Shown here one piece after another: positions 2,974 through 19,992 of a DNA stretch of 20,426 bases; positions within the stretch are counted from its first letter, which is position 1; every line of letters begins with the position of its first letter. A program made the translations under genes and the position numbers. The DNA is from a virus. Below the pieces are notes generated by a model, which was given only the letters and a program-made list of their open reading frames with translations, was not told the DNA's origin and searched no databases. The stretch is taken from IMG/VR virus record IMGVR_UViG_3300013297_000254, positions 1 to 20,426 of that record, one strand, 5' to 3'.

Positions 2974-3177
2974 TCAGCGGAACACGGCCACGAAAGCGCG
3001 GATCCATGCGTCGTTGATGACCCATGGGCACGGCAGCACGGTCGCCGCTGCCGCGGTGGTCGCCGCCGAAAGCGTTACCGCCGCCACGAGGGCACGCTGC
3101 CACAGCAGGTTGAGCATGGCCGCGTGCTCGACGGCTTCCGGCGATTCGGTTACAGGCGTGAAGGTGATGCTAGGCAT
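2974..3177 (-). CDS. Small membrane-anchored protein downstream of the PEP-CTERM gene
   Basis: A 67-residue protein, start ATG at 3177 preceded by a strong GGAGGA site. It has a hydrophilic N-terminal third and then a hydrophobic, Ala/Thr/Leu-rich helix (about residues 28-49). The start overlaps the end of the PEP-CTERM gene by 8 bp, so the two are co-translated. No family recognised. The arrangement suggests a partner of the secreted protein, but this is only positional. Confidence 0.6.
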   Translation of the reverse strand: MPSITFTPVTESPEAVEHAAMLNLLWQRALVAAVTLSAATTAAAATVLPCPWVINDAWIRAFVAVFR

Positions 3178-4009
3178 GGCGCTTCCTCCGGATGAAGGCC
3201 AGCAGCAGGAAACCTGCGCCGACCAGTGCGATGGAGCCCGGTTCCGGCGCCGCGAAGGCGAAGGTGCCGGGCAGGTAGGCCCATTCCTCAAAACCATCGG
3301 CGGCGTCCGCGCCGGGCGTGGTGCCGCCGGCATCGCCGAACGCGCTGGAGAACAGGATGCGGCTATCCGCTGCCAGCCCGATGAAGGCCGACGTCGGGAT
3401 CAGCACCCGCAAGTCATAGCCGAGTCCCGACCCGGCAAACAAGTTGTAGTCCAGCATCAAGGTGTTCTGCGGCCCGAGGGCATAGACAAGCTGCAGGTTG
3501 GGCAACAGATCGAGGTCCGCGAGGCTGGTGACGTTGGTGTTGTTGAGCATGAACGGCGCGGTCTCCCCCGACGTGCCGCTGCGGCCCCAGATCCGCAGCG
3601 TATCCAGCGACAGCAGGCTGTTGGTCCCCCCGTTCGGCTCGTTGATGTCGAGGAAGAAGGCGAAGTAGTCGATCCCCGCCAGCGTGATGGTGCCCAACTG
3701 ATTGAGTTGGAAGGTGGTGGTGAAGGTGTTGGTGTTGTCGCGCTTGTCGTCCAGCGGCAGGGTGTTGACGGTAGGGTCGTCGGTGGACACGCCCCCTTCC
3801 GTGCCGTTTTGCTGCAGGCTCAAGAACGGGGTGATGACCCCGCTGCCGATGTTGCTCAAGTTACTGGGGTTCTGGAACAGCGCCCCGCCGGCCGTGGTGT
3901 CGGTAGCGAAGGTGCAGGTGCCGCCGACCAGGAACAGGTTGCAGGTGGATCCGGCGAAGGCCGGTGCGGCGAGGATGGCCAGCGCCGCGGCGAGCAATAG
4001 ACGTTTCAT
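3170..4009 (-). CDS. Secreted PEP-CTERM sorting domain protein
   Basis: A 279-residue protein. It starts at ATG 4009 with GGGAGAT upstream and a classical Sec signal peptide (MKRLLLAAALAILAAPAFAG). The body is rich in Asn, Thr, Gly, Ser and Leu, with a cysteine pair soon after the signal (CNLFLVGGTC), typical of beta-rich secreted proteins. The C-terminus is a textbook PEP-CTERM signal: PEP motif at residues 255-257, a hydrophobic helix, then RRKR. In hosts with an exosortase (EpsH/XrtA), such proteins are sorted to the cell surface and linked to exopolysaccharide and floc or biofilm formation. The gene stands alone, opposite to the late genes and insulated by a terminator, like a lysogenic-conversion moron. 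The molecular function of the body is unknown. Confidence 0.88.
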   Translation of the reverse strand: MKRLLLAAALAILAAPAFAGSTCNLFLVGGTCTFATDTTAGGALFQNPSNLSNIGSGVITPFLSLQQNGTEGGVSTDDPTVNTLPLDDKRDNTNTFTTTFQLNQLGTITLAGIDYFAFFLDINEPNGGTNSLLSLDTLRIWGRSGTSGETAPFMLNNTNVTSLADLDLLPNLQLVYALGPQNTLMLDYNLFAGSGLGYDLRVLIPTSAFIGLAADSRILFSSAFGDAGGTTPGADAADGFEEWAYLPGTFAFAAPEPGSIALVGAGFLLLAFIRRKRHA

Positions 4010-4046
4010 GGTGATCTCCCTTGGGTTGGTGTTGCCTGCAGAGGGC

Positions 4047-4063
4047 AAGCACGGAATGCACCA
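4047..4063 (-). promoter_or_regulatory. Candidate sigma-54-like promoter for the PEP-CTERM gene
   Basis: On the minus strand the sequence TGGTGCATTCCGTGCTT has GG and GC dinucleotides separated by exactly 10 nt, the spacing of -24/-12 elements, with partial consensus matches around them (TGG..C and TGCT). A sigma-70 style -10, TACAAT, lies just upstream at 4070-4065 but without a convincing -35 box. The region between the terminator and the gene must contain a promoter; which one is used cannot be told from sequence. Confidence 0.3.
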
Positions 4064-4078
4064 AATTGTAATCCGGTG

Positions 4079-4105
4079 AAAAAACAAGGGCCCCCGCAGG
4101 AGCCC
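4079..4105 (-). terminator. Rho-independent terminator of the 17-gene leftward operon
   Basis: On the minus strand GGGCTCC TGCG GGGGCCC forms a 7-bp stem (one G-U pair) with a 4-nt loop, followed by TTGTTTTTT. It lies 25 bp beyond the last gene of the operon and directly upstream of the PEP-CTERM unit, separating the two transcripts. Confidence 0.85.
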
Positions 4106-4129
4106 GTTGAGCGACTGTAAACCCTGCCG

Positions 4130-6577: not shown

Positions 6578-6810
6578 GGCTTCCCCCCCTTCTTCCCTGC
6601 CCCGGCCACCAGTTCCTTCTTCACGAACCCCAGCGCATCCATCATCCCGCCCACGTAGACGCAGTAGATGACGCTCTGCTGGTTCTCGGTCAGGCGCGAG
6701 AACGGGATCGCCGGGTGGGCCTTGGCGTAGGCGGAGCGCGCCGCTTGCTTGCCTTCCTCGGCCAGCTCGCCCGCCTCGCTGATCACGAAATTGTCGGTGA
6801 GGCCGCTCAT
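6574..6810 (-). CDS. Hypothetical phage protein following RecT
   Basis: A 78-residue protein beginning MSGLTDNFVISEAGELAEEG, largely helical with a Gly/Lys-rich C-terminus. The start overlaps the RecT stop as ATGA, so it is probably translated at a ratio set by RecT. No family recognised. Confidence 0.65.
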   Translation of the reverse strand: MSGLTDNFVISEAGELAEEGKQAARSAYAKAHPAIPFSRLTENQQSVIYCVYVGGMMDALGFVKKELVAGAGKKGGKP

Positions 6811-7901
6811 TCCATGGCCTCCACCTTGTTGCGGTAGATCGCCTGCAGGGTGTCCTTGCGCGGGCCCGGGACCAGCGGCTGGATGTGGAGGCTGGCGAAC
6901 AGCTGCGCCTCTTCCTTGGTCTTGGCGTCGCTGATGCCGGCGATGATCTGCTCGTCGGTCAGTGGATCGGGGGCCGAATTCTTCTCCGTAACACTATTGG
7001 TCGCCGTCGCTGTCGCGGTCTCCGCCACTGACGCATTTTTCTCCGTCACTTCCGCCCCGTGGAGGCCCGCTTCTTGCCCGGCGTTGAACACCCGATCCTT
7101 GGCCACCTTGTACGCGGCCCGAATCTTGGCCTTGTCCGGAATGCTGGCGTCGCGCATGGCGGTCGCCTTCTGGTAGGCAGCGTCGAGCCCGGCGACGTCC
7201 TGCACCCCCTCGAACTCGGCGATCATGGTCAGCGTGGCCGGCAACGGGGCCAGGTGCTGCTTCATCTTGTCGGTGGCGTTGGCCGAGGCCGCGATCGGCT
7301 CGCGCGGCAGGGTCTCGCCCTGGGCGGTGACGTCGACCTCCATGTCGCGCAATTCCTCGGCCTGCGGGAGGCCGCGCAGGATGTCGGCTGCCGCGTCGCG
7401 CGCGGCGAACCAGAACGCACGCCACGCCATCTGGCGGAAGGGATAGCTGCGCCAGGGGCCTTCCTTGTCCCACAGCTTGGCGCGCACCGCGTCTTGCTTG
7501 CTGAACGTCCGCGTCACCGGCGGCCGTCCGGGGCGCCCAATGGTGCATTGGGCATAGCCAGCGCGCTCCACCGCGGCGGTGTCCATTTCCACGATGGTGC
7601 AGCCGTGCTTGAGCAACAGCGCCTTGCCCCCATCCCCGTACAGGCCCGGCTTGCCGTTGATCACGGCGATCGACTGCAGCGACTGCACCGGCTTCAGACC
7701 CAATTCAAAGCCCATGGTCATGGCCACGTACACGTTGCCCGGCTTGCCCAGGTAATCCTTCGGCACCATGGTCGACTCGGCCAGCATCCGCGCCAACTCC
7801 ATCGCCTCCCCGTTGTTCTTCGGCATGAAGTCGTAGGGACTCTCGGCCACTGCTGGCAGCTGCTTCTGTTCCATCGGCACTACGTTGGTGTTCTCGTCCA
7901 T
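6807..7901 (-). CDS. recT: RecT-family single-strand annealing protein
   Basis: A 364-residue protein. Conserved RecT blocks are present: PKDYLGKPGNVYVAMTMGFE with LGLKPVQSLQSIAVINGKPG (about residues 47-86), and GPWRSYPFRQMAWRAFWFA (about 148-166). RecT coats single-stranded ends and anneals them to complementary strands, working with a 5'-3' exonuclease, here the YqaJ-type nuclease two genes upstream. A variable Ala/Thr-rich linker (about 285-315) carries an imperfect VTEKN repeat and joins a short C-terminal helical tail, where RecT proteins often bind partners. ATG at 7901 has GAGGA upstream. Family assignment is secure. Confidence 0.92.
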   Translation of the reverse strand: MDENTNVVPMEQKQLPAVAESPYDFMPKNNGEAMELARMLAESTMVPKDYLGKPGNVYVAMTMGFELGLKPVQSLQSIAVINGKPGLYGDGGKALLLKHGCTIVEMDTAAVERAGYAQCTIGRPGRPPVTRTFSKQDAVRAKLWDKEGPWRSYPFRQMAWRAFWFAARDAAADILRGLPQAEELRDMEVDVTAQGETLPREPIAASANATDKMKQHLAPLPATLTMIAEFEGVQDVAGLDAAYQKATAMRDASIPDKAKIRAAYKVAKDRVFNAGQEAGLHGAEVTEKNASVAETATATATNSVTEKNSAPDPLTDEQIIAGISDAKTKEEAQLFASLHIQPLVPGPRKDTLQAIYRNKVEAME

Positions 7902-7903
7902 CG

Positions 7904-8080
7904 CTAGTCCTCGTCAATGCTGAATCCCCGGGCCCGCGCCCAGGCTTCCAGCTTCTCGTTGTCGAAAATATCCTCCGGCTGCGCGGTGTCGTTGAGGTAC
8001 TCCTTCACCGACTCGAACAGTGTCTCGGGCTCGCCCACCAGGGCTTGAAACAGCCCCACTCCCAATTCGCTAGGCGTCAT
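7904..8080 (-). CDS. Small acidic hypothetical protein between exonuclease and RecT
   Basis: A 58-residue protein, MTPSELGVGLFQALVGEPET onward, ending RGFSIDED. Strongly acidic and helical. It begins 11 bp inside the end of the exonuclease gene and stops 2 bp before RecT. Position between the two recombination partners makes a modulating role attractive, but I recognise no family. It is too short for many gene callers; overlap on the upstream side and continuity of the operon support it. Confidence 0.6.
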   Translation of the reverse strand: MTPSELGVGLFQALVGEPETLFESVKEYLNDTAQPEDIFDNEKLEAWARARGFSIDED

Positions 8081-8981
8081 TGCTGCTGTCCTTCGCTTTG
8101 TAACGAAACTCCATATGCTCGTCGGGTTCCACCGTGTAGCCCTTGCGCTTCACCATCTTGCGCACAAATTCGCCGGCCACGCCGGGGATGCGCATCACCG
8201 CGGCCTCGCCCATGAAGCGCTCCAGATGGGCCTTCGCCACTTCCTCCGTCTTCGTGTACTCCAGCCGCAGCTTGGCCGAATCGCGCATGATGGCGATCCA
8301 CGGGGTGAGCGAAACGTCGCCTTCGATGATCTCGCCATTGGTGCCGGGATAGACCCGCTTGATGACGTCGAGCGCGCGCGGACTGGCGGCGTCGATCTCG
8401 GGCGGCACCCCATTGATAACCGCCTCGTGGAAGTCGTGGGTGCTGGAAATGATGAGCTCGTCCATTTCACGATCTCGCACCACTTCGTAAAACCGCAGAT
8501 CACCGCCGCCGAAATAGCCGGCCACGGTCCACACCGGGTAATTCTTCACGAGCATGTAGGTGTGCGGCTGCGGGAGGTAATGCTGCGGGATCTCGTCGGT
8601 CCCCTGCTCGCCCCAGCCCTTCCACGCGCGCGGTCCCACGTTTTTGATTTCGAGGCCGCGCTCCAGGCCGACGAAGTCGCGGTCAATGTGCACCGTCAAC
8701 CAATCGTATTTGGGATGCACCAGGGTCAGGTTGCAACGGCGCAGCTTGACCTCGGTACCCCACTTCCGCGTCAGGCGGCGGGCCACCAACTCGGCGATCG
8801 GGGTCTCCATGATGTTGCCGGCCTCGACGTTGTCGTTGGTCTCTAGGTCGGGAATCGGCAGTTCGCCCCGTTTTTCGTGATACAGCTCGCGTGCGCTTTT
8901 CCACGGATTGAGCCCGAGGATCGTCGCTACATCGGAGCCGCCGATCTTGCGGGCGGCCAGTTGCTCTTTGGTCAATGCCAT
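8070..8981 (-). CDS. YqaJ-type viral recombinase exonuclease
   Basis: A 303-residue protein; ATG 8981 is chosen because it overlaps the preceding stop (TGATG) and starts the conserved domain. N-terminal IGGSDVATILGLNPW (13-27) and the G-x-x-x-E block around Glu59 are typical of YqaJ/lambda-exonuclease-like enzymes. The catalytic PD-(D/E)XK core is visible as Asp100 (HIDRD) and Glu111-x-Lys113 (LEIKN), followed by the Tyr/Gln motif HYLPQPHTY (134-142). These enzymes digest the 5' strand from DNA ends and load the annealing protein, here RecT. All catalytic residues appear intact. Confidence 0.92.
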   Translation of the reverse strand: MALTKEQLAARKIGGSDVATILGLNPWKSARELYHEKRGELPIPDLETNDNVEAGNIMETPIAELVARRLTRKWGTEVKLRRCNLTLVHPKYDWLTVHIDRDFVGLERGLEIKNVGPRAWKGWGEQGTDEIPQHYLPQPHTYMLVKNYPVWTVAGYFGGGDLRFYEVVRDREMDELIISSTHDFHEAVINGVPPEIDAASPRALDVIKRVYPGTNGEIIEGDVSLTPWIAIMRDSAKLRLEYTKTEEVAKAHLERFMGEAAVMRIPGVAGEFVRKMVKRKGYTVEPDEHMEFRYKAKDSSNDA

Positions 8982-9262
8982 CAGTGCGCTCCTTGTGGGG
9001 GTTCGTCGTCCTCGTTGCGAATGGTCTCGATCATGGCCTCGACCTGGGCGATACGGATCTCGTCGCCCTCCGGGCCCATGCGGGCCGCGTGTTCGGCGTA
9101 CAGGGTGGAGGCGGCGATGAAGCACAGGCACGCACCCGCGTCGGTGTCGTAGCCGAAGGCTTTTTCCAGGACGTCCTTCAACTGCTCGCTCACCGCGTTC
9201 AGCTTGGCGGGGTCGAAGGCATCGAGGAAACCCTCCACCTTTGCAATGTCTCGGGCTCGCAT
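8981..9262 (-). CDS. Hypothetical phage protein
   Basis: A 93-residue protein beginning MRARDIAKVEGFLDAFDPAK. Helical and acidic, with a Cys pair in AGACLCFIAAST that lies in a hydrophobic helix. It overlaps its two neighbours by one base each (TGATG). No family recognised. Confidence 0.65.
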   Translation of the reverse strand: MRARDIAKVEGFLDAFDPAKLNAVSEQLKDVLEKAFGYDTDAGACLCFIAASTLYAEHAARMGPEGDEIRIAQVEAMIETIRNEDDEPPQGAH

Positions 9263-9549
9263 CAGTGCACTCCTGTCGGCGGCGGTTCCAGCTGCTGTAG
9301 GGTCACCTGCTCGCAGTAGTGTTCGTAGTGCAGCTCGAGCTTGCGTTCGGCCCCGGCGAAGATCTCCGCGTCGGCGTCCCCGGTCTTGGTGCGGCAGCAG
9401 GCCAGGTGCTGCGCGGTGCAGTGCACCAGCACCATCAGCACCCGCACCGGATCGTCCGCGTGCAGCTGCATCAGGTGCTGCCGCAGCGCCTCGGCCTCGC
9501 TGACCGCGGCCTGCTCCATGGCCTCGTACTCGCTGTCGGGGCGGTCCAT
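9262..9549 (-). CDS. Hypothetical phage protein
   Basis: A 95-residue protein; ATG 9549 overlaps the preceding stop by one base. Sequence MDRPDSEYEAMEQAAVSEAE leads into long helices with Cys and His residues (VHCTAQHLACC, HYEHYCEQ), which could bind a metal. No family recognised. Confidence 0.65.
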   Translation of the reverse strand: MDRPDSEYEAMEQAAVSEAEALRQHLMQLHADDPVRVLMVLVHCTAQHLACCRTKTGDADAEIFAGAERKLELHYEHYCEQVTLQQLEPPPTGVH

Positions 9550-9752
9550 CAACTCCCCTTCGGCTTGCGCACGCGCTTCTTGGCGACCGCGATGTCGCAG
9601 GAGACCACCTGCGGATCGGCGCCCATGCCGTTGATGTGCACCGTGGCCACCGCGGCCTCGTCGTCCTGCAGACGGTTCGCCACGTAGGCCACGCAAGCGG
9701 CCTCGATCTGGCCCTGCGTCAGCGTAAATCCCACCCGTTTCTCCATCACCAT
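9549..9752 (-). CDS. Small hypothetical phage protein
   Basis: A 67-residue protein, MVMEKRVGFTLTQGQIEAAC onward, with a basic C-terminal tail (KKRVRKPKGS). Two starts compete: ATG 9758 overlaps the upstream stop as ATGA but abuts the GGGAGG; ATG 9752 has GGAGG at the ideal 6-nt distance, so I prefer it. The function is unknown. The basic tail could bind nucleic acid. Confidence 0.6.
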   Translation of the reverse strand: MVMEKRVGFTLTQGQIEAACVAYVANRLQDDEAAVATVHINGMGADPQVVSCDIAVAKKRVRKPKGS

Positions 9753-9754
9753 CG

Positions 9755-9943
9755 TCATCCTCCCAAAATTGGTTCGGCCAAGGCGGCGTCCCTCACGGTC
9801 TTGAGCACGGCTTGCATGGTTTCGATTTCGTGCTCGGCTTGCTCTGTGGTCATCTTGCCGCGGCTCACCCAGCGCGCGTACACCCGGCGGCGGTAGGTCA
9901 GCTCGCGCTCGACGCACTTCACCTGCTCTTGTAGGGTCTTCAT
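9755..9943 (-). CDS. Small coiled-coil phage protein
   Basis: A 62-residue protein beginning MKTLQEQVKCVERELTYRRR, with VYARWVSRGKMTTEQAEHEI in the middle. This pattern (heptad helix, VY.RWV..GKMT, second helix) recurs in many phages of Pseudomonadota as a hypothetical protein near recombination genes. The start overlaps the previous stop as ATGA. Confidence 0.7.
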   Translation of the reverse strand: MKTLQEQVKCVERELTYRRRVYARWVSRGKMTTEQAEHEIETMQAVLKTVRDAALAEPILGG

Positions 9944-10197
9944 TGCACCAGCTCCCCGGCGCGGGCCAACACCCGGCCCGGCCCCAGCGTGCCCTCTTCG
10001 TCGATCATCGTGTAGGCCACGTCGCGTGCCTCACAGCTGCAGCACTCCTTGCGGTAGCACGCTCCCTGCCAGCGCTTGGCCGGGCAGTTGTCGTCGTGCT
10101 CGGCCATGATCAGAGTGCATTCGCCCTGCCTGCGGGCGATCTCCAGCATCACGTTGTGGCGGATGGTCTCGAGAATTTCAAATGTAGTGAGCTTCAT
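9940..10197 (-). CDS. Cys-rich hypothetical protein, first gene of the leftward operon
   Basis: An 85-residue protein. A basic N-terminal helix precedes a Cys-rich segment (NCPAKRWQGACYRKECCSC), probably a metal or disulphide knuckle. There is no Shine-Dalgarno sequence: the predicted leftward -10 box ends only 6 nt before the ATG, so the transcript should begin at or next to the start codon and be leaderless. As the first product of a 17-gene chain it sets ribosome entry for everything downstream. No family recognised. Confidence 0.65.
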   Translation of the reverse strand: MKLTTFEILETIRHNVMLEIARRQGECTLIMAEHDDNCPAKRWQGACYRKECCSCEARDVAYTMIDEEGTLGPGRVLARAGELVQ

Positions 10198-10203
10198 CCC
10201 GCG

Positions 10204-10232
10204 AGTTTACCCTTGCTCAACGGGGCTTGCAA
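10204..10232 (-). promoter_or_regulatory. Leftward early promoter
   Basis: Reading the minus strand: -35 TTGCAA (10232-10227), 17-nt spacer, -10 TAAACT (10209-10204). Transcription should start 6-8 nt further on, at the ATG of the first leftward gene (10197). The -35 hexamer is palindromic and shared with the rightward promoter. Confidence 0.6.
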
Positions 10233-10256
10233 TTTTTACATGAGGGGGGGTAAACT
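10227..10256 (+). promoter_or_regulatory. Rightward early promoter for the Cro-like gene
   Basis: -35 TTGCAA (10227-10232), 18-nt spacer, -10 TAAACT (10251-10256). A start about 7 nt downstream leaves only about three bases before the ATG at 10266. The purine run GAGGGGGGG is upstream of the -10 and cannot serve as a ribosome site. Confidence 0.6.
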
Positions 10257-10265
10257 CGCGCGACT

Positions 10266-10520
10266 ATGGCCCAAATTACTCTGAAACAATGGTTCGGCCG
10301 CCGCGGGTCGCCCTCGCAGGCGGAATTTGCCAGCTTGATGGGCGTAACCCCAGGCATGGTCTCGCGCTGGTGCAGCGGCGAGCTCGTCAGCGCGGACAAG
10401 GCCCCTTCGATTGAGCGGATCACTCGCGGTGCGGTAAAGTGCGAGTTGCTCAATCCGCACGTGGATTGGGCCGCACTACGCGGTCAGCGACGGCGCCGAC
10501 CCCCCTCCAAAGCGGCATAA
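10266..10520 (+). CDS. Cro/YdaS-like helix-turn-helix repressor
   Basis: An 84-residue protein. ITLKQWFGRRGSPSQAEFAS, LMGVTPGMVSRWCSGE and later IERITRGAVKCELL form the compact helix-turn-helix seen in phage Cro and YdaS-type regulators (recognition region about residues 17-40), with a basic tail. It should bind the inverted repeat just upstream. No Shine-Dalgarno sequence exists and the -10 box ends 9 nt before the ATG, so the mRNA is nearly leaderless. Opposite it lies not a CI gene, as in lambda, but the recombination operon. Confidence 0.85.
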   Translation: MAQITLKQWFGRRGSPSQAEFASLMGVTPGMVSRWCSGELVSADKAPSIERITRGAVKCELLNPHVDWAALRGQRRRRPPSKAA

Positions 10521-10585
10521 AACCGCTTGGGGCGGAGCGGGCACCGCCCAACGAACACACTGCCGGGAAATCCCTTCGCGGGGCC

Positions 10586-10620
10586 GCCGCTGCCACAACA
10601 GCGGCTACCGGCGCCTTTTT
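10586..10620 (+). terminator. Possible terminator between cro-like and replication genes
   Basis: The 120-nt gap after the Cro-like gene holds a 7-bp stem (GCCGCTG at 10586-10592, CAGCGGC at 10599-10605) followed, after a GC-rich stretch, by TTTTT at 10616-10620. The position corresponds to lambda tR1. The distance between stem and T-run is large, so this is tentative. A second imperfect hairpin (TTGGGGCGG with CCGCCCAA) lies near 10529-10552. Confidence 0.35.
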
Positions 10621-10640
10621 CGCCTCTTGTGGGAGCGCAG

Positions 10641-11399
10641 TTGTATACCAAGCTGTTCCCCTCGATGTTCGACGGGACCCTCGTCACCAAGGGGCCGTGG
10701 CAGGCGCTAGTCACCTTCCAGCAGATGCTGATCCTGGCCGACGAAACCGGGGTGGTCGACATGACTCCCGGCGCGATCTCCAACCGCACCACCATCCCCC
10801 TCGACATCATCCAGACCGGCATCGCCGCGCTGGAACAGCCCGACCCCGACAGCCGCACCCCCGACCTTGAAGGCCGGCGCATCGTGCGCCTCGACGAACA
10901 CCGGACGTGGGGTTGGCAGATCGTCAACTACCAGCAGTTCCGCGAGATCCGCGACAAGGAAGAGCGGCGGGCCTATCAGCGGGAGTGGTTGCGAAACAAG
11001 CGGAAACAGGCGTCGACAGATGATGACAGTTGTCGACAGCCGTCGACTGGTGTTGACGATGTCGACCAAAGCAGAAGCAGAAGCAGAAGCAGAAGCAGTA
11101 CTTGTAATGAAGCAATAGCGTTTGATGCTTCGCCTCCGGCTCCGCCAACGGACGCAAAAACGAGGAAGAAGGGCAACGGCACCCCGCTGGGGCAACGCCT
11201 GCCTGCCGACTGGAGGCTCCCCGACGAGTGGAAGGAGTGGGCGATCGCGTGCTACCCCGACCTTGACCCGCAGAAGGTAGTGCGCATGTCGCTCGAATTT
11301 CGGGATTACTGGGGCGCGGTCCCTGGCGCCAAGGGCCGCAAGACCGACTGGCTGATGACGTGGCGCAACAACATCCGCCGCAAAATGGGGGACGCATGA
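10641..11399 (+). CDS. Phage replication initiator, O-like
   Basis: A 252-residue protein beginning at TTG 10641, chosen because GGGAG lies 5 nt upstream and similarity to related proteins seems to start there (LYTKLFPSMFDGTL). Residues about 20-100 form a winged-helix style domain (ALVTFQQMLILADETGVVDM, TTIPLDIIQTGIAALEQPD, WGWQIVNYQQFREI). After a low-complexity Asp/Ser/Arg linker (125-153), the C-terminal region (LPADWRLPDEWKEW, EFRDYWGAVPGAKG, DWLMTWRNNIRRK) is the helicase-loading type tail shared by many phage replication proteins. The linker DNA carries an iteron-like array, a likely origin. Family role is established; details are inferred. Confidence 0.82.
   Translation: MYTKLFPSMFDGTLVTKGPWQALVTFQQMLILADETGVVDMTPGAISNRTTIPLDIIQTGIAALEQPDPDSRTPDLEGRRIVRLDEHRTWGWQIVNYQQFREIRDKEERRAYQREWLRNKRKQASTDDDSCRQPSTGVDDVDQSRSRSRSRSSTCNEAIAFDASPPAPPTDAKTRKKGNGTPLGQRLPADWRLPDEWKEWAIACYPDLDPQKVVRMSLEFRDYWGAVPGAKGRKTDWLMTWRNNIRRKMGDA
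11012..11135. other. Candidate replication origin inside the replication gene
   Basis: Five units begin every 10 bp at 11012, 11022, 11032, 11042 and 11052 around a core GTCGAC or one-to-two-base variants, with a further GTCGAC at 11061. Next come five perfect AAGCAG hexamers (11069-11098), then a more AT-rich stretch containing an inverted repeat, GAAGCA and TGCTTC, near 11108-11130. Iterons, then an easily melted stretch with a palindrome, inside the O gene, is the plan of lambda ori. Confidence 0.5.
11069..11098 (+). repeat. Five perfect AAGCAG tandem repeats
   Basis: Five contiguous copies of AAGCAG encode an alternating Arg-Ser run in the linker of the replication protein. As a multiple of three, copy-number change would not shift the frame. 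Confidence 0.9.
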
Positions 11400-17013: not shown

Positions 17014-17057
17014 GTGGGAGATCAATACACTGACGGACGAGGGGCTAGTTTACTCCC

Positions 17058-17342
17058 TCATGGGTGCTTCTCCTTCGCCTTCTGCTCGATGTAGCGCAGC
17101 GCCTCCAGGCGCGAGTCGAACAGCGCCACGGTCTTGTAGATGCCGATGTCCTCGGGCACCTCGTTGGGGCGGAACACCACCAGCTTGCCGGTGGCGCGCA
17201 CCTGGATGCCGCGGTGCGCGGCGTGGCTGCCGACGTGCTCGGCTACGCTCCATTGCGGGGTGGCGATGAGCCCCTCGCTGATGGGGGGCTTCGGCTTCGG
17301 GGGCCGTCCGACTGGGCGGCCGGTAGGCTTGCGGCGGCTCAT
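17058..17342 (-). CDS. Hypothetical protein with AT-hook-like N-terminus
   Basis: A 94-residue protein beginning MSRRKPTGRPVGRPPKPKPP. Two GRP-centred basic motifs resemble AT-hooks, which bind the DNA minor groove. The remainder is a small domain with FRPNEVPEDIGIYKTVALFD and a terminal helix. The start overlaps the next gene by 4 bp. Last gene before the terminator. Function unknown. Confidence 0.65.
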   Translation of the reverse strand: MSRRKPTGRPVGRPPKPKPPISEGLIATPQWSVAEHVGSHAAHRGIQVRATGKLVVFRPNEVPEDIGIYKTVALFDSRLEALRYIEQKAKEKHP

Positions 17343-17623: not shown

Positions 17624-17927
17624 GGGGGTTCCTGGTGGCAGAGGGTTGTTGGGAGCGCACGTAATCCCACAGCTTGTCTTTCACGCTGTGGGGGATGGCG
17701 AGCCACTCGGCGGTGGTCAGATTGAGCCAGCCGCAAATGTGCCGTTCGCGGGCGGGGGCGATGGTTTCCTCCTGCAGCTCGATGGGGAGCAACTCGAACA
17801 GATCGTAAAAGGCGCCCTCGGGATAGGCGAACTCGGCCTGCTCCTTGGCGTGCTGCGGGTCCTCGCCCTCACACAGCAGGTGGATGCGATCCGGGTAGCC
17901 GCTGATGAGGACGAGGTAGCGTTTCAT
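17613..17927 (-). CDS. Hypothetical phage protein
   Basis: A 104-residue protein; ATG 17927 overlaps the stop of the regulator gene as ATGA. MKRYLVLISGYPDRIHLLCE is a strand-loop start; the rest is helical and Trp-containing (GWLNLTTAEWLAIP). No family recognised. Confidence 0.65.
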   Translation of the reverse strand: MKRYLVLISGYPDRIHLLCEGEDPQHAKEQAEFAYPEGAFYDLFELLPIELQEETIAPARERHICGWLNLTTAEWLAIPHSVKDKLWDYVRSQQPSATRNPHAD

Positions 17928-18679
17928 CCGCGGCGGGACAGGTAGGGGTAGTAGGGATCGTAGAAGGCGCCCACGGCCGGGTGCAGCGGGGGAATCCACG
18001 TGGCCAGCCCCTGCTCGACCGCCTGCTCAACCCAAGCATCCATCCCGAACGTGTCCTGCGGCGGCGGGATGTCCTCGAAGCTGGCCGGCAGCAGCGGCAG
18101 CAGCTGCTCGGAGCGCGACGGATGGCGCATCTTGCGCAGCGCCTTGGCCTCGATCTGCTGGACGCGGGCGACGCTCAAGTCGAACATGCGCGCCACTTCC
18201 GTAGCGGTTTTCTCCTGCCCTCCGCCCAGGCCGAAGCGGTACACCAGCACCTTGCGCTCGTAGACGGTCAGGTGCTTGACGGTCTCGATCACCCGCAGCA
18301 CTTCGGCGGCGGTCTCCTTCTGCTGCAGCAGCGCATCCGGCCGCTGGTCGGCCTCCCGCAGCGCCGCCATCACTTCGCGGCGGTTCAGGGTGTATTGGGC
18401 GTGGTTGCTGGAGAGTGCCAGCTGGACCGCGGAGGGGAACAAGTCCTCCGGCGGCACCCCGCAGGCGTCGGCCACCTGCAGCGCCGGCCGGCGCCACTCG
18501 CCCGTCATCTGGTTGATCGGGTTGCGCTTGAGGTTGAGCAACTCGCCCACTTCCGACTGGCTCAAGTCGAACTTCCGGCAGAAGTCGGCCACGCTGTCGG
18601 CGCGGGCCTCGATCGCGGACAGCAAGGGGTGGTTGCGGACCTTGATCGAAATGCGGAATTCGTCGTCGTCCCGGTTCAC
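17924..18679 (-). CDS. XRE-like and sigma-70 region 4 fusion regulator
   Basis: A 251-residue protein from GTG 18679, with GGAG 7 nt upstream. Residues about 19-82 (LLSAIEARADSVADFCRKFD, LSQSEVGELLNLKRNPINQM) are a Cro/XRE-type helix-turn-helix with a PEDLFPS ending. Residues about 126-188 match sigma-70 region 4: VYERKVLVYRFGLGGGQEKT, TEVARMFDLSVARVQQIEAK, ALRKMRHPSRS. Regions 2 and 3 are absent, so it cannot replace a full sigma factor; similar fusions in Pseudomonadota phages are labelled sigma factors. It may contact host polymerase beta flap or -35 DNA to redirect transcription. Role inferred. Confidence 0.82.
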   Translation of the reverse strand: MNRDDDEFRISIKVRNHPLLSAIEARADSVADFCRKFDLSQSEVGELLNLKRNPINQMTGEWRRPALQVADACGVPPEDLFPSAVQLALSSNHAQYTLNRREVMAALREADQRPDALLQQKETAAEVLRVIETVKHLTVYERKVLVYRFGLGGGQEKTATEVARMFDLSVARVQQIEAKALRKMRHPSRSEQLLPLLPASFEDIPPPQDTFGMDAWVEQAVEQGLATWIPPLHPAVGAFYDPYYPYLSRRG

Positions 18680-19926: not shown

Positions 19927-19953
19927 TGCGGTGCTCCATTGAGAGTGGTTGGG

Positions 19954-19968
19954 TTTACTACGGGTAAA
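19954..19968. promoter_or_regulatory. Candidate operator, TTTAC/GTAAA palindrome
   Basis: TTTACTACGGGTAAA lies 28 bp upstream of the leftward gene starting at 19926. Its GGGTAAA half is shared with the arms of the operator at 10248-10260. No convincing -35/-10 pair was found around it. Confidence 0.4.
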
Positions 19969-19992
19969 GCACTTGCATGGTACTCCAGCGGC

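Follow-up and report, generated by a model that had tools for sequence, protein, structure and literature searches.

Predicted divergent early promoters and putative Cro operators in a 68-bp phage control region

How two divergent early operons might be controlled from a gap of 68 bp is the question raised by a locus in a 20.4-kb fragment of a soil-type phage, referred to here as the window (the whole stretch of DNA that was analyzed, 20,426 nucleotides). The gap, at positions 10198-10265, lies between a leftward operon carrying recombination genes and a rightward operon that begins with a cro-like gene. A sequence-only reading of the locus had proposed that two divergent promoters share one palindromic -35 box, that both mRNAs are leaderless, and that RNA polymerase, which could bind in one direction only at a time, makes a built-in choice between left and right. 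From the analysis described here, the locus appears to be a known type of phage control region in compact form rather than a new kind of switch.

Genomic setting of the control region

The first gene to the right of the gap (10266-10520, plus strand) encodes an 84-amino-acid protein of the YdaS/P22-Cro family, which matches PF15943 with 45.2 bits (cut-off 30) and PF14549 with 31.6 bits (cut-off 30.2) as well as the Xylella Cro structure 3bd1. It is followed by the gene for a replication initiation/primosomal (O-like) protein (10527-11399, plus strand; PHROG 3992 and 1408) and by one for a possible Q-like protein. The leftward operon, on the minus strand, starts with left85 (9940-10197), whose product has no family match, and includes genes for a YqaJ/RecE-like exonuclease (8070-8984; PF09588, PHROG 434) and a RecT-like annealing protein (6807-7901; PHROG 561, 3.6e-29).

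Four other viral contigs carry the region in near-identical form, and one of them (G002, 109 kb) contains what appears to be the whole phage, a ~70.7-kb circle as judged from its repeated ends, and then part of a second phage. This second, distinct phage (G002 70.8-109.4 kb; L014, L015) is apparently joined via a ~100-bp identical stretch that sits in a Lar-like gene common to both phages. Searching the window's own record with 501 bases of the control region returned the self-match only, the record being the window itself. Positions 1-288 of the window are fused in frame to a phage virion protein, and the other contigs match the window only from position 289; this segment, which by eye we take to be a fragment of lpxB (lipid-A-disaccharide synthase), is either an assembly chimera or an insertion junction. 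At 9535-9560, the junction of l68 and l95, a cluster of mismatches and gaps distinguishes the window from its four sibling contigs, which agree with one another, and reflects either local variation or an assembly error.

No S24 repressor, tyrosine integrase (PF00589) or resolvase (PF00239) was found in the records carrying the phage, which are possibly incomplete, and no HTH_3 protein besides Cro was found in the phage's own part of the record. The locus differs from a lambdoid CI/Cro region in that no CI-type gene lies divergent from cro and no integration gene was found in these records. Among the annotated named phages with a similar Cro that were checked, a repressor gene mostly lies across the gap and the operators are different. 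Scans of genome contigs with cro and with exo returned no host or prophage relative. Distant mycobacteriophage DNA matches were rejected as relatives of the control region, the short match lying close to where the O-like gene ends and outside the control region.

Candidate promoters in the gap

The elements described by the sequence-only reading are all present when the DNA is read directly. A perfect 13-bp inverted repeat has its left arm at 10200-10212 (CGCGAGTTTACCC) and its right arm at 10248-10260 (GGGTAAACTCGCG), and its center at 10230 falls within TTGCAA (10227-10232), a palindrome that is a candidate -35 box in both directions. Both candidate -10 boxes lie within the arms of the repeat and have the sequence TAAACT: the leftward box at 10204-10209 (minus strand) is 17 nt from TTGCAA, and the rightward box, which would serve cro, is at 10251-10256 (plus strand), 18 nt away. 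The start codons adjoin the gap, with the leftward ATG at 10197 and the rightward ATG at 10266. Scored with approximate weights, TTGCAA is the best -35 box for both window -10 boxes. TTGCAA and TAAACT each agree with their consensus at four of six positions, and the resulting 8/12 pair is below the threshold of a default sigma-70 promoter scan, which gave no matches and was dropped as a source of promoter support. Both window promoters are predictions from sequence. A search of 9900-10700 against Rfam gave no match, and no tRNA was found in the window.

The repeat is the only perfect inverted repeat in the window of at least 12 bp with a gap of at most 50. Some 13-bp inverted repeat arose in 5% of dinucleotide shuffles of the whole window and in none of 20,000 shuffled versions of the intergenic gap. 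The window has a single instance of the shared palindromic -35 arrangement, which was absent from 200 whole-window shuffles and appeared in one of 20,000 local shuffles; the TTGCAA-based arrangement is thus beyond chance in these shuffles. This rarity, together with the rank of TTGCAA as the best -35 for both -10 boxes, favors the possibility of a polymerase-exclusive switch, in which the palindromic -35 forces a left/right choice and two leaderless mRNAs favor particular ribosome states; polymerase as its own switch has been proposed for the Pr/Pc promoters of pLS20 (PMC4207663).

If transcription starts 7 nt past each -10 box, the leftward transcript is predicted to begin at 10197, the A of the left85 ATG, and the rightward transcript at 10263, 3 nt upstream of the cro ATG. 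The proposal that neither gene has a Shine-Dalgarno (SD) sequence was borne out for cro, for which a survey of phage genes found none, and nearly so for left85, which has just a 4-nt AAGG 13 nt away. Of the other phage genes in the survey, nearly all do carry an SD.

Comparison with a relative of the phage

The one informative relative to be found is L035 (6.8 kb), the other contigs with this region being near-identical to the window. L035 has the same divergent gene order, with identities to the window of 48% for Cro, 57% for l68, 63-64% for the exonuclease and 55% for RecT, and an O-like gene is also present. The first leftward gene of L035 is the relative of window l68, left85 and l62 being extra window genes that are absent from L035. 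Relatives of the O-like, RecT-like and Exo-like proteins other than those in L035 have no matching cro at the site.

The gap in L035 is 102 bp and TAAACT is kept on both sides, at 1405-1410 for the leftward promoter and upstream of cro for the rightward one, yet each -10 box has a -35 of its own: the cro promoter reads TTGCAT-17-TAAACT and the leftward promoter TTGACT-16-TAAACT, with TTGACT matching the consensus at five of six positions. A search for the same arrangement in related phages, which the sequence-only reading had suggested, turned up two separate -35 boxes, and one candidate -35 for both directions can be proposed for the window but not for L035. By-eye alignment (AGTTTACCcttGCTCAA-CGG in the window versus AGTTTACCgccGCTCAATACCAAGTCAACGG in L035) indicates that the window corresponds to L035 with 11 bp missing between two copies of TCAA; written out, the difference is AGTTTACCnnnGCTCAA[TACCAAGTCAA]CGG. 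The difference takes away TTGACT, and TTGCAA is then the sole candidate -35 for both sides. We infer that the 11 bp were lost in the window rather than gained in L035, deletion being the simpler reading.

The start of cro is conserved in L035, where its mRNA would be near-leaderless too (TAAACT-CCCGCGC-ATG, the start codon following 7 nt beyond the -10 and lacking an SD). The first leftward gene of L035, on the other hand, has a leader of ~25 nt carrying GGGGAGAAG as its SD. An essentially leaderless and conserved cro mRNA is thus the better supported half of the claim that both mRNAs are leaderless, and the predicted leftward leaderless start is, from this comparison, restricted to the window lineage. 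Because L035 has separate -35 boxes and a leftward leader with an SD, the shared -35 is likewise taken to be peculiar to that lineage.

These same differences argue against a polymerase-exclusive switch. An either/or choice would also have no obvious purpose, because the recombination and replication operons both serve lytic functions, and all five E. coli bidirectional promoters that have been tested fire too seldom for basal competition between polymerases (PMC12825309). The built-in left/right choice thus found no support, and such a switch is considered very unlikely. Mutual exclusion of polymerases at the predicted window promoters is plausible on geometric grounds, but it is probably not a decision device. 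Steric exclusion is already usual at closely overlapping divergent promoters, and a choice need not follow from it.

Operator-like dyads over the -10 boxes

The inverted repeat makes better sense as portions of two putative operator dyads than as promoter symmetry. All four -10 boxes, those of the window and those of L035, end a 17-bp near-dyad with the consensus GTTGA-N7-TAAAC. The proposed operator OL (10205-10221, minus strand; GTTGA-GCAAGGG-TAAAC) lies on the leftward -10 and has its counterpart at L035 1393-1409. The proposed operator OR (10239-10255, plus strand; CATGA-GGGGGGG-TAAAC) lies on the cro -10 and is a poor dyad with two mismatches and a weaker left half, CATGA, while its counterpart at L035 1348-1364 is a perfect dyad. 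In full, the window dyads are GTTGAGCAAGGGTAAAC and CATGAGGGGGGGTAAAC, and those on the two TAAACT boxes of L035 are GTTGAAAGCCGATAAAC (perfect) and ATTGAGCGGCGGTAAAC (one mismatch). The dyad centers are 34 bp apart in the window and 45 bp apart in L035, so that the two spacings differ by 11 bp, roughly one turn of the helix. The two operators would appear as an inverted repeat because each is placed in the same way with respect to its own promoter. In the window as in L035, the layout is that of a YdaS/P22-type Cro, with the gene divergent and palindromic operator-like sites on both promoters.

The inverted repeat could instead be just two similar -10 regions with no role in protein binding, as what the four arms have in common comes down in essence to (G/A)TAAACT, which is the -10 box itself. 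The 13-bp identity reaches beyond the -10, however, L035 again has TTGA half-sites spaced 7 bp from TAAAC, and TTGA-TAAAC dyads also occur at distant sites where a promoter role is not evident, all of which makes this explanation highly improbable.

Among viral contigs, inverted repeats of the AGTTTACCC type were found only in the same phage and in one unrelated Firmicutes-like contig, the latter being judged a chance match. A sequence resembling the OR arm is present at 17046-17060 (reverse strand CATGAGGGAGTAAACTAG, with 2 bp less in the spacer), just beyond the end of the leftward gene at 17058-17342.

Dyads elsewhere in the phage genome

In the ~70.5-kb phage, GTTKA-N7-TMAAC is matched perfectly four times versus 0.017 expected from shuffles, one of the four matching by construction since the pattern was drawn from these sites; perfect copies of 68 scrambled or re-spaced control patterns numbered at most one each. 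When up to one mismatch is allowed the excess is less clear, with 11 dyads versus up to 9 for control patterns. The gaps taken alone (7.3 kb) hold two perfect dyads and four with at most one mismatch, for which 0.15 were expected in shuffles, and six of the dyads with at most one mismatch are located either in gaps or at the beginning of a gene. The dispersed dyads are near-palindromic, few in number and mixed in orientation.

One perfect dyad, GTTGAGCGACTGTAAAC (4106-4122, plus strand), is intergenic and lies beside a terminator-like hairpin upstream of a gene (3170-4087) for a secreted-type protein whose C-terminal PEP-CTERM motif, at 20.3 bits, is just under the cut-off of 20.7. Another, GTTTATGTCAGGTAAAC at L016:2848-2864, overlaps the start codons of the terminase small subunit (L016:2846-2864), which have no SD, and one of the four (L017:2450) is within a coding region. 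Dyads with one mismatch are found just upstream of a second leftward gene (GTTTACTACGGGTAAAG, 19953-19969) and, at L016:11827 and 12806, in two short gaps within the late operon.

Perfect dyads in an intergenic position or where a gene starts, and one-mismatch dyads in late-operon gaps, would also suit a different regulator acting genome-wide at stoperator-like sites. Such a regulator could be an unrecognized CI-like repressor or the protein encoded at 17924-18667, an unusual fusion of a weak N-terminal HTH with a clear Sigma70_r4 domain (53.2 bits) that might be a late regulator. The sites are few and of mixed orientation, however, neither an S24 repressor nor an integrase was found in the records, and published work on the YdaS/Cro family describes a half-site that matches as well as divergent autoregulation. 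The binder of the dyads could still be an unrecognized repressor, but this explanation is judged unlikely.

Model for early control

On balance, accumulating Cro probably occupies both dyads and represses the two early promoters. The early control region would be of lambdoid style, with no cI separating the recombination operon on the left from the cro and replication operon on the right, and with PL and PR back to back within 68 bp. Each TAAACT box would double as a -10 and as one half of an operator dyad, and a dimer of the adjacent Cro protein on each dyad would shut both promoters, which are presumed active, once enough Cro is present. Loss of the 11 bp relative to L035 would have drawn the promoters together, with one palindromic TTGCAA coming to serve as both -35 boxes. 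Joint binding by two polymerases would then be impossible at the merged promoters, exclusion being a by-product, and the mRNAs may be translated without leaders. Binding specificity varies within the Cro family, the Rac-type phage relatives of enterobacteria having TTAGGC/GCCTAA repeats (PMC5700373).

In phages with Cro but without CI, it is puzzling what purpose Cro serves when there is no lysogeny choice to make. The locus offers a small and testable example, where the role of Cro would be confined to timing the shift from early to late expression, symmetrically on both arms. Comparison with L035 suggests that a deletion of about one helical turn can merge neighboring promoters into a shared -35 while the operators stay in register. 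A bolder proposal is that of an orphan-Cro phage, without cI or integrase, in which one bidirectional unit (a single palindromic -35 open to one polymerase at a time, two operators, leaderless both ways) runs the early program and Cro acts genome-wide in a stoperator-like manner through further 17-bp operators between genes, among them those where the terminase gene starts and in gaps of the late operon. That proposal is a long shot; should the dispersed dyads turn out to be bound, however, a genome-wide function that is not usually credited to Cro would follow.

Comparison with known systems

The ydaS/paaR2 region of CP-933P in E. coli O157:H7 is similar in having a divergent YdaS-family Cro, in this case with a gap of ~97 bp, palindromes with a GTTTA outer half-site on both promoters, and one mRNA (paaR2) that is leaderless (PMC8630535). 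YdaS footprints on both divergent promoters of CP-933P at 18-bp palindromes with the half-site GTTTAGTAA, and it represses PR, PRM and also PL (PMC8630535). The outer GTTTA agrees with the window dyads and the spacing differs by 1 bp, the orientation of the published half-site being our own reading. CP-933P has the CI-like repressor gene paaR2 on the left and a separate PL (PMC8630535), whereas in the window the repressor gene is absent, the recombination operon lies directly to the left, and one candidate -35 would serve both promoters. The racR/ydaS region of the Rac prophage shares the Cro family, the divergent gap and the palindromic operators, but the RacR repressor is present, the operator is TTAGGC/GCCTAA and the recombination genes lie beyond racR (PMC5700373). 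In the cI/cro region of PY54 both divergent transcripts are leaderless, as mapped by RACE, but cI is present, Cro acts on a single operator (OR3) and no shared -35 was reported (PMC4488713).

At E. coli bidirectional promoters the DNA is pseudo-symmetric, and polymerase can engage it in either orientation but not in both at once (PMC12825309). These promoters share a -10, and the window promoters, which would share a -35 and have two -10 boxes 47 bp apart, are therefore not bidirectional in the Warman/Grainger sense of one common -10. For pLS20 Pr/Pc, polymerase exclusion has been proposed as a layer of the switch and one regulator acts on both promoters, but there a -10 box coincides with a -35 box, RcoLS20 loops the DNA, and the system governs plasmid conjugation (PMC4207663). 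A limited search of the open literature returned no described case of a palindromic -35 serving two -10 boxes in a phage control region, while divergent transcripts that are leaderless both ways (PY54, PMC4488713) and overlapping divergent promoters with polymerase exclusion (pLS20, PMC4207663) are already known.
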